Origin: Desulfuromonas sp.
GTDB lineage: Bacteria; Desulfobacterota; Desulfuromonadia; Desulfuromonadales; UBA2294
Length of the DNA: 40,207 nucleotides
Assembly (NCBI GenBank): GCA_002868925.1
Contig: PKTZ01000174.1
Coordinates: forward strand, 1-40,207
Direction: 5' to 3'
Shown in pieces: positions 1-2,500 of this stretch. Under the pieces are notes generated by a model. It had not been told where the DNA came from and did no database searches. It was given only the letters and a program-made list of their open reading frames with translations. The position numbers and the translations under genes are program-made. Every line of letters begins with the position of its first letter. Positions within the stretch are counted from its first letter, which is position 1.

Positions 1-162
1 TCACCCGGTGAATCGGGAGAGGAGATGGATGAAGATCGGCCAACCGATGAGGGTCGCCGCAACGACAACCGAGATACCGGTCAGCAGCGAGAGGACGACG
101 ATCCAGGCGTTGTAGAAAGCTTTTGCGTGGGCGTCGGGCCGATGTGTTGTTTTACTAATCAT
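1..162 (-). CDS. Single-helix mini membrane protein, third tandem paralogue (53 aa)
   Basis: Reads from an ATG at 162 to a TGA whose complement is the first three bases of the window. A strong ribosome site (AAGGAG) lies just upstream of the ATG. The protein has a short polar, His-containing N-terminus (THRPDAHAK), one hydrophobic helix at about residues 19-43, and a C-terminal GWPIFIHLLSRFTG. The W...G..GWPI..HL.(K/R)F.G pattern is shared with the two genes upstream on the same strand, so this is a diverged paralogue. Function is unknown; I do not recognise the family. The conserved Trp, Pro and His near the end of the helix suggest a membrane partner or cofactor, which is inference. It is probably the third gene of a sigma-54 operon that may continue beyond the left edge. 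Confidence 0.8.
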   Translation of the reverse strand: MISKTTHRPDAHAKAFYNAWIVVLSLLTGISVVVAATLIGWPIFIHLLSRFTG

Positions 163-195
163 GATTCGCTCCTTTTCTGCGTCTGTCGCGCTGTT

Positions 196-232
196 GCCAC
201 AGCCTGCTTTTTTGTTTGCGGCAGGCTGTGGC
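196..232 (-). repeat. Intercistronic hairpin between mini-protein genes 2 and 3
   Basis: GCCACAGCCTGC (196-207) and GCAGGCTGTGGC (221-232) form a perfect 12-bp stem with a 13-nt loop. No U-tract follows on the minus strand, so it is unlikely to be a full terminator. It may instead stabilise or process the mRNA and set different levels of the second and third small proteins. Confidence 0.7.
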
Positions 233-241
233 GCAAAAGCC

Positions 242-409
242 TTAGCCCATGAACTTGGAAGCGAGGTGGGCGATGATCGGCCAGCCGACGAGAACGGCGG
301 TGCTGAGTACGGTCAGGCCTACGATAACGGCCAGTGATACGAGCCAGAAGTTGGTCAGGGTTTTGGAGGCAGAGGCTTCGTGGTTCATGGTTCTTGCTTT
401 TGCTGACAT
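242..409 (-). CDS. Single-helix mini membrane protein, second tandem paralogue (55 aa)
   Basis: ATG at 409 with GGAG about 10 nt upstream; TAA at 242-244. The polar N-terminus (MSAKARTMNHEASASK) is followed by one hydrophobic helix, about residues 22-46, and ends GWPIIAHLASKFMG. Over the last 37 residues it matches the first paralogue at 29 positions by eye, including W, G, GWPI, HL and KFMG, so the pair arose by tandem duplication. N-termini differ strongly, so selection seems to act on the helix and C-terminal tail. No function is known to me. The gene is 70 bp downstream of paralogue 1, with no promoter I can see between them. Confidence 0.85.
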   Translation of the reverse strand: MSAKARTMNHEASASKTLTNFWLVSLAVIVGLTVLSTAVLVGWPIIAHLASKFMG

Positions 410-479
410 GATGTTTCTCCGTTTGTTAGGGTTACGTTGTTTTCTTCTGTTTACGTTTTGTTTATCTCTAAGCTATCCA

Positions 480-650
480 TTAGCCCATGAATTTGGCGGC
501 GAGATGGGCGACGATCGGCCATCCGACCAAAACCGATGTAACGATAACGGTCAAGCCGACGATGACGGCCAGCGCGACCAACCAGATGTTTGCGGCAACG
601 TTAGAGATGTGAGAGTGACCAGTTTCCATTTTTTCTATTTTGGCGTTCAT
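480..650 (-). CDS. Single-helix mini membrane protein, first tandem paralogue (56 aa)
   Basis: ATG at 650 preceded by a strong AGGAGG site; TAA at 480-482. The protein has a polar, His-containing N-terminus (KMETGHSHISN), one hydrophobic helix at about residues 23-47, and a C-terminal GWPIVAHLAAKFMG. It is the promoter-proximal gene of the three paralogues and starts about 33 nt after the start site predicted from the sigma-54 promoter at 695-710. It is too short for ordinary gene callers, but the AGGAGG site, three diverged copies and the shared C-terminal motif make it a real coding gene. It could be a small subunit of a membrane complex encoded further left, or a stand-alone regulator of one; neither can be shown here. 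Confidence 0.87.
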   Translation of the reverse strand: MNAKIEKMETGHSHISNVAANIWLVALAVIVGLTVIVTSVLVGWPIVAHLAAKFMG

Positions 651-694
651 GGCAGCCTCCTTTCGGCTTGTTTGTCTGTTTGACTTGTTATAAA

Positions 695-710
695 TCCAAG
701 TCCCGTGCCA
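695..710 (-). promoter_or_regulatory. Sigma-54 (-24/-12) promoter
   Basis: On the minus strand the sequence reads TGGCACGGGACTTGGA, against the sigma-54 consensus TGGCACR-N4-TTGCW. The invariant -24 GG and -12 context are present with correct spacing; only the -12 C is G. Transcription would start about 12 nt downstream, giving a short leader before the ATG at 650. Confidence 0.82.
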
Positions 711-810
711 AAAACATTAATTTAAATTAATTTTTTAAAAAAGCAATAAAATCAATAATTTAGACTTGACATGAGGCGTCATTTATGGTTTTATCATTAG
801 CGAGTCAAAT

Positions 811-824
811 GTTGCAAACGCAAC
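811..824. promoter_or_regulatory. Probable activator site, GTTGC-N4-GCAAC palindrome
   Basis: GTTGCAAACGCAAC is a perfect 5-bp inverted repeat centred about 115 bp upstream of the sigma-54 promoter, the usual distance for an enhancer-binding protein. It shares the GTTGCA core with sites at 945-1000 and 2365-2388. Confidence 0.6.
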
Positions 825-944
825 GAAGGTTAATCGAAATTAATGTTAATAGGATTAATCGGGTTTAATATTCAAATATCGCCATGGGGTATATTTTAGC
901 GGGTTTGTAAGAAGTTAAAGAGTTTTAATTTAAGGCAGTTAGTC

Positions 945-1000
945 ATAAATGTTGCATTTGGCGTTGCATTGCACTGCACTGCAACGAATGCAACATTTAT
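945..1000. repeat. Large inverted repeat with four GTTGCA half-sites
   Basis: ATAAATGTTGCATT (945-958) and AATGCAACATTTAT (987-1000) are perfect 14-bp inverted copies, and an inner pair (GTTGCA at 963, TGCAAC at 980) adds two more half-sites. It lies 6 bp after the activator stop and about 270 bp upstream of the sigma-54 promoter. It could be a distal activator-binding array, a transcript-end hairpin of the activator gene, or both; no T-tract follows on the minus strand. Confidence 0.6.
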
Positions 1001-1006
1001 TTTTGC

Positions 1007-2308
1007 CTAAATATTATGACGTTTCATCCAGCGCCAGAGAGTAGTCCGGTCGACGTTGAATTCCTGGGCGGCGAGATTGCGGTTGCCCTCGTGTTTTTCC
1101 AGAACCCTCAGTAGAGTTTCCCTGTTCGGTCTTTTTCTGGAACGGGTTGTCGGGTCGGGGGTGTATTCGTTTTGCTGCAGGGTGATCGGCAGGTGTTCGG
1201 CTTCGATTTCGGCGCTATGGCAAAGAATCACGACCTGCTCGACCAGATTGAGAAGTTCTCTCACATTTCCCGGATAGTCATGTTCCACTAGTATCTGCAT
1301 CGCCTCGGGGCTGAAGCCACGCACCCGCTTGCCATATTTCCTGTTGAATTTATCGACAGCAAAATCGAGCAGCAGGGGAATGTCCTCTTTGCGCCGCCTC
1401 AGGGGCGGGATCTGCAGGGAGACGACATTGATCCGGAAGAAGAGGTCGCGGCGGAAGGTTCCCTCCTCGACCATTTGGGCAATATTACGGTGTGTCGCCG
1501 TGACGAAACGGATATCTGCCGTTTGCGGGCTCTTGGCGCCGAGCGGTTGAAACTCCCTGTTTTCCAGAACGCGGAGCAGTTTGACCTGCAGCGGCAGCGG
1601 CAGATCGCCGATCTCGTCGAGAAAAAGGGTCCCCCCTTCGGCCATCTCGAGGCGTCCAGGCCTGTTTTCGACGGCGCCGGTGTAGGCGCCCCGCTTTGCG
1701 CCGAAAATTTCCGCTTCGAGTAGCGGCTCCGGCAGGGCACCACAGTTGATGGTGACCAAAGGTTTGTCCTTGCGACTGCTCAGGTTGTGAATGGCCCGGG
1801 CGACCAGTTCCTTGCCGGTGCCGCTCTCGCCCTGCACGAGGATGGTGGCGTCGCTGTAGGCGACGTCCTGAACCACGTCGAAAAGATGCTGCATGGCGTC
1901 GTTGCGGCTGATCATGTCCTCGAACGAGAACATGTTGCTGACCTCCCGCTTGAGAGAAAGAAACTGCGAGATGTCGCGCATGGTTTCGACCCCGCCGACA
2001 GCGACACCGTTTTTATCACGCAGCACCGAGGCGCTGATCGAGACGTCGATCTTCTGCCCGCGTCGGTCCTTGATCTGCATTTCGAGCTCAGTGATTGGTT
2101 TGTCGTCTTTGAGTGCCTGGCGGATGGGACAGGCTGTATCACAGAGGTTTGATCGGAAGACCTCGTGGCAGGGATGCCCGATCACTTCTGAACGCTCAAA
2201 GAGGGTCAACTCCTCGGCGGCGCGGTTGAACGAGGTGATCCGCATTTCATTGTCGACGGTGAAGACGCAATCGGCGACGCTGTCGAGTATGGCCTCACAA
2301 TGTTCCAT
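1007..2308 (-). CDS. Sigma-54-dependent activator with PAS, AAA+ and Fis-type HTH domains
   Basis: 433 aa. The start is placed at the ATG at 2308 (MEHCEAILD) because AGAGGT precedes it; longer starts in the frame lack a ribosome site. The N-terminal PAS domain (about 5-115) carries Cys47, Cys56 and Cys60 in HPCHEVF and LCDTACPIR, a pattern I associate with redox- or metal-sensing PAS domains of anaerobes (inference). The AAA+ domain has Walker A GESGTGKE (160-167), a GAYTGA variant of the sigma-54 contact loop (207-212) and Walker B GGTLFLDE (225-232). The C-terminal Fis-type HTH ends [10 protein letters not shown]. There is no receiver domain, so it is not a classical response regulator. Adjacency to a sigma-54 promoter and shared GTTGCA sites suggest it activates the mini-protein operon and controls itself. 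Confidence 0.93.
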
Positions 2309-2364
2309 ATTACCTCTTGTTTCATTCATCATTGAATAGTTGAGGGTATCACATGAATATATAT

Positions 2365-2388
2365 TAATGCAACATAATTGCAACATGG
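2365..2388. promoter_or_regulatory. Direct repeat of TGCAACAT upstream of the activator gene
   Basis: TGCAACAT occurs at 2368-2375 and 2379-2386, 11 bp apart, so on one DNA face. It is the same core as the sites at 811-824 and 945-1000 and lies 60-80 bp upstream of the activator start. It fits autoregulation. Confidence 0.5.
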
Positions 2389-2500
2389 GTAGATAAAAAT
2401 GGAGTTGTGGAACCGTATGTGGAGAAGCGAACTGCTAATTAATTAGATTTACACTGCTGATTAAGGTATTTAGGAAGTCCTATAGGTGAGCTGGGAATCA

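Follow-up and report, generated by a model that had tools for sequence, protein, structure and literature searches.

In Geobacter, the operon cbcBA is a case in which a sigma-54 activator, BccR, controls genes for an inner-membrane quinone oxidoreductase. Very small proteins are part of other respiratory systems. CydX, CydY and CydZ are short small subunits of cytochrome bd oxidase, with CydX consisting of a single hydrophobic helix (PMC4325964). Furthermore, the gene cluster of the alternative complex III (ACIII), a quinol:cytochrome oxidoreductase of the NrfD/PsrC type, encodes ActG, a non-universal and cofactor-free protein for which one helix is predicted (PMC5928083).

A locus with features of both kinds was analyzed at the edge of a contig of Desulfuromonas sp., of which the whole stretch of 40,207 nucleotides is called the window in the following. 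The first-pass annotation had described three tandem genes for proteins of 53-56 amino acids with one helix and good ribosome sites, and an open reading frame as well as an RBS is present for each of these small proteins (SPs; Table 1). As it had stated, SP1 and SP2 are identical at 29 of the 37 C-terminal residues (alignment, counted by eye) and SP3 is a diverged paralogue, sharing 34-38% identity with the other two. For SP1, AlphaFold gives a single helix spanning residues 16-55, with a pLDDT above 90 in the helix core, and the SPs are predicted to insert into the membrane as single helices.

Table 1. Features at the left end of the window.
Feature	Position	Strand	Evidence
SP1, single-helix membrane protein (predicted), 56 aa	480..650	minus	ORF; first gene of the operon; RBS AGGAGG 656-661; profile match E 6e-21
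SP2, paralogue, 55 aa	242..409	minus	ORF; RBS GGAG 417-420; profile match E 2.5e-22
SP3, diverged paralogue, 53 aa	1..162	minus	ORF; RBS AAGGAG 169-174; profile match E 5.5e-17
Putative sigma-54 (-24/-12) promoter TGGCACGGGACTTGGA	695..710	minus	Same site in the C44 copy; equivalents in the sister genome and in other genera
Putative proximal enhancer palindrome (UAS) GTTGCAAACGCAAC	811..824		GTTGC-N4-GCAAC recurs in other cassettes
Distal enhancer-like cluster of GTTGCA/TGCAAC half-sites	951..994		Directly 3′ of the activator gene
Sigma-54 activator (EBP), PAS + AAA+ + Fis-type HTH	1007..2386	minus	Pfam PAS, Sigma54_activat, HTH_8

In the sister genome (G001), the positional counterparts of SP1, SP2 and SP3 share 66, 64 and 51% identity with them, respectively, which is above the identity to the other two SPs of that species. 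Between the sister genomes, dN/dS is about 0.08 for SP1 and 0.2 for SP2, which indicates purifying selection; dS is saturated for SP3 in this comparison. Among the tandem SP pairs located beside ImcH genes, same-position identity exceeded cross-position identity in 176 of 209 comparisons. Distinct SP paralogues are kept together, with two subtypes in the ImcH-side pairs and three in the genus of the window, while among the relatives the helix and the tail are conserved and the N-termini are variable. The maintenance of distinct subtypes side by side favours a hetero-oligomer. This agrees with the hetero-oligomer suggested as one option in the first-pass annotation.

The left edge of the window is an assembly break and not a biological end. 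The stop codon of SP3 forms the end of the contig, and 99-bp identical overlaps connect contig ends (window 1-99, L006 1-99 and L132 2988-3086); contig C213 (L006) begins with positions 1-99 of the window and then runs on. The same promoter, leader and SP1 start form the end of contig C44, where they are preceded by a region which is 80% identical and retains the UAS. According to these overlaps, the SP cassette is most likely present twice in the genome of the window and was collapsed as a repeat in the assembly; the contig stops at the SP3 stop codon because of this duplication. The second copy is located downstream of a mraZ-like gene, and downstream of one SP copy there are genes for a PAS histidine kinase and for a response regulator that is fused to a thioredoxin reductase (L006 341-4281; all labels by eye). 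Several genomes (G031, G039, G057, and G062) carry identical or near-identical duplicates of their SP cassettes. A fifth weak match in the genome of the window, on contig C118, is a short frame containing a stop and was left out of the counts.

The near-consensus sigma-54 promoter proposed earlier was found as TGGCACGGGACTTGGAT, 46 bp upstream of the SP1 start codon, with TTGG in place of TTGC at -12. A site scoring as well was obtained in 1% of the shuffles, and the sister genome has a matching sigma-54 site 45 bp upstream. The palindrome, which had been noticed at the usual enhancer distance, is indeed located 101 bp from the promoter, and the pair of UAS and promoter is also found in other genera, where it precedes homologous SP or CbcL operons, mostly in those that have an orthologous activator. 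The distance between the two elements amounts to 97-117 bp in seven cassettes (the window, the C44 copy, L040, L042, L136, L183, and L187). Half-site clusters similar to the distal one were found after the stop codon of the EBP gene in G001 (end of L126), upstream of the SPs in G048 and G001, and in the C44 copy. From the sequence pattern, both promoter activity and binding of the activator at the UAS are predicted for the window.

Genome-wide, the motif GTTGC-N4-GCAAC occurs 8 times in the genome of the window (G000) and 12 times in G048, counts which are independent of the choice of EBP-type loci, and it is found upstream of both SP cassettes in G000 and of all three SP loci in G048. In 26 EBP-type loci, the UAS was observed 21 times versus 1.05 expected from shuffles, an enrichment that is inflated, since these loci were chosen after the activators or sites were known and some of them overlap in sequence. 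None of the 8 ImcH-type loci contains a UAS; therefore, the regulation of SP cassettes is not uniform. Likewise, the search for sigma-54 sites in most ImcH-type cassettes gave nothing above the shuffles, which means that sigma-54 control is not general in the SP family.

The activator gene, which likely starts near position 2308, had been regarded as dedicated to the operon, and this is in line with its orthologues (54-64% identical), which are located beside SP, NrfD or CbcL operons; the orthologue in G001 is 74% identical. The residues Cys73, Cys82 and Cys86 of the PAS domain (C-x8-C-x3-C) are invariant in ten aligned homologues and could possibly constitute an Fe-S or thiol redox sensor. 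In addition, TGCAAC half-sites are located at window positions 2340-2400 upstream of the activator gene, which suggests autoregulation.

By profile search, SP relatives were identified in 49 of the 136 genomes of the order and, with other orders included, in 54 of the 226 genomes of the class. Outside the class, a sample of 394 genomes from across the phylum contained no relative. Among the carriers are Geothermobacter hydrogeniphilus HR-1 as well as several MAGs of Desulfuromonadales and Geobacteraceae. No family match was obtained for the SPs in Pfam, NCBIfam or PDB, and weak matches to MHYT and Collectrin (E 0.009-0.1) were put down to the composition of a hydrophobic helix. A term search of the literature, mostly of papers outside subscription, found no text naming the SPs or describing them as parts of ImcH or CbcL. 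The earlier statement that no described system has this make-up is thus correct for the small proteins, which are unnamed, but not for their surroundings, as relatives are located in or beside operons of the named cytochromes ImcH and CbcL.

In 36 of the 49 genomes the SPs are linked to such enzymes, i.e., they lie within 8 kb of ImcH or a c9-type NrfD, or within 4 kb of CbcL. Counted by partner at the same distances, this applies to ImcH in 21 genomes, to c9-type NrfD in 14 and to CbcL in 16. NrfD is encoded in an operon with a 4Fe-4S protein, a triheme cytochrome c7 and an octaheme NapC-type cytochrome (NapC8), and genes that we take to be CbcSTU-like are also among the neighbours. The neighbouring CbcL comprises nine haems and a membrane part, and ImcH was identified by its three TM helices, one CX3CH and six CX2CH motifs, as given for this protein (PMC6295460).

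The distances are short in many cases. ImcH is located 219-538 bp from the SP genes in 15 genomes, and in four genomes (G048, G026, G037, and G121) an SP gene immediately precedes CbcL at 210-250 bp. In four loci (L037, L038, L046, and L190) an SP gene lies on the same strand between the genes for c7 and NapC8; in L046, the run on one strand reads EBP, SP, SP, c10, NrfD, Fd, c7, SP, NapC8. The order EBP, UAS, sigma-54 promoter, SP, SP, CbcL in G048 (L042) corresponds to the layout of the window with CbcL added. Within the class but outside the order, SPs precede CbcL and EBP in L183, L185, L187 and L189; the order c10, SP, c22, CbcL, small gene, EBP is common to L183, L185 and L187, and the same main genes are found in L186 and L189. 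SPs are present in 18 of the 19 genomes with a c9-type NrfD versus 31 of the 117 others (Fisher p 1e-8, phylogeny ignored).

Two additional proteins recur together with SP, CbcL and EBP (L127 12776-14290; L183 9554-12936; L189), namely a ‘VPYYG’ protein of about 105 amino acids (c10) and a zinc-ribbon/HTH-like protein of about 250 amino acids (c22). A NifX-like (Nitro_FeMo-Co) protein is encoded within NrfD operons. Genes for RNR and HSP90 (L036), RNase G, HipA, Lon and efflux also occur as SP neighbours, but they differ from genome to genome and were considered unrelated.

The linkage is not complete. Many of the SP cassettes are found on their own next to unrelated genes, including both copies in the genome of the window, and the partner enzymes differ between lineages. 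In several genomes with unlinked SPs, ImcH is located right at a contig edge according to the coordinates, a place at which the assembly would be interrupted by a repeated SP cassette. Furthermore, SPs are absent from about 20 genomes with ImcH and from many with CbcL, and thus they are not essential parts of these enzymes. In the genome of the window, contig C136 carries ImcH, CbcSTU-like genes and the end of a c9-type NrfD operon, with ImcH directly beside the CbcSTU-like operon (L150 8555-12695). CbcL was not found in this genome, which is 88% complete, and no linkage between SPs and enzymes was seen among the known cassette flanks. Since the cassette is duplicated there and not adjacent to the enzymes, any effect of it on ImcH or the NrfD complex, which both have genes on C136, would be exerted in trans.

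On the basis of these neighbourhoods, the SPs are probably accessory subunits or modulators which, in the manner of CydX or ActG, affect assembly, stability or activity of inner-membrane quinol:cytochrome oxidoreductases feeding extracellular electron transfer. Their partners in the Desulfuromonadales and relatives would then likely be CbcL, ImcH and the complex of NrfD, ferredoxin, triheme c7 and octaheme NapC, all known or predicted to pass menaquinol electrons outward. The neighbourhood could also be due to common regulation or to a genomic island of respiratory genes, and not to a complex. In that sense, the SPs might be regulatory or stress-related membrane peptides, which are co-regulated with the quinol dehydrogenases, e.g., for proteolysis or the membrane state at a redox change, without being subunits. 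In favour of this explanation, many cassettes, both copies in the genome of the window included, are not beside enzymes, and it agrees with the multi-copy stand-alone cassettes distant from enzymes, with sigma-54 promoters of their own and with the many enzyme-bearing genomes lacking SPs. It is nevertheless rather unlikely, as in many genomes an SP gene is wedged among the structural genes of an enzyme operon, a position that would fit a subunit or an assembly factor better, and as it is the helix and the tail that are conserved and not the N-termini.

The same genomic evidence would also suit assembly chaperones of c-type cytochrome or NrfD complexes that are absent from the mature enzyme, and the accessory genes for the NifX-like protein and c10 share operons with the SPs. 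With two or three paralogues conserved in each cassette, a stoichiometric assembly seems more likely, and we regard a purely chaperoning role as doubtful.

The most conserved feature of the SPs is the near-invariant proline of an (A/G)WP motif close to the end of the helix. The tryptophan is usual in the relatives, whereas the glycine is mostly alanine and the histidine is often replaced by tyrosine, phenylalanine or tryptophan, so that it is not conserved as a heme or quinone ligand residue across 24 SP members. The idea from the first-pass annotation that Trp, Pro and His bind heme or quinone, with the SPs carrying electrons or quinone themselves, is therefore very improbable: GWPI..HL is strict in the three SPs of the window and in their orthologues from the sister genome, but among the relatives only the proline is nearly invariant, and the SP sequences contain no CXXCH.

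If the SPs are accessory subunits or modulators, the following mechanism can be proposed. The PAS-containing activator, perhaps sensing redox conditions via its three conserved cysteines, would bind GTTGC-N4-GCAAC and the distal half-site cluster and drive the -24/-12 promoter about 100 bp away, in agreement with the recurring pattern. Two or three distinct paralogues would be made together, inserted as single helices, and packed jointly against the quinol dehydrogenase at its membrane part. This packing may change the amount or the choice of active enzyme as the acceptor potential shifts. A more far-reaching version, which we consider improbable, is that ImcH, CbcL and the NrfD complex share one interchangeable SP set of two or three paralogues, encoded in several chromosomal copies and switched by the redox-sensing sigma-54 activator. 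If true, the cell would retune its entry points for electron export to the acceptor potential by swapping tiny subunits and not whole enzymes.

Among the known systems, CydX resembles the SPs as a short protein encoded in respiratory enzyme operons with few conserved residues (PMC4325964). However, its partner is cytochrome bd oxidase, and the SPs gave no Pfam or NCBIfam match to a curated CydX-type family model; no cydAB was noticed in the SP neighbourhood maps, in which part of the neighbouring genes is annotated. ActG, compared by description, is likewise predicted to have one helix, carries no cofactor, is not universal and is encoded in the gene cluster of an NrfD-type enzyme, and genes for NrfD and ferredoxin are present in SP-bearing clusters according to the neighbourhood maps. 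In contrast, ACIII contains ActB, ActC and ActF, whereas the SP clusters contain ImcH, CbcL or NrfD with Fd, c7 and NapC8.

On the regulatory side, the sigma-54 regulons of Geobacter offer a likeness in that a sigma-54 activator is placed over an operon for an inner-membrane quinone oxidoreductase, as with BccR and cbcBA. The main text of the paper on the RpoN regulon (PMC2725144) makes no mention of the CbcL-region locus tags searched. Finally, the inner-membrane cytochromes ImcH and CbcL of Geobacter (PMC6295460, PMC12307469), together with CbcSTU-like ones, are those which neighbour the SPs in relatives of the window's species. The findings bear on how Geobacter-type bacteria pick ImcH, CbcL or other inner-membrane entry points by acceptor potential. 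Direct handles on this choice are provided by a conserved and unnamed SP family genetically linked to all these enzymes, by its dedicated regulator and by an enhancer motif that can be read from the sequence.
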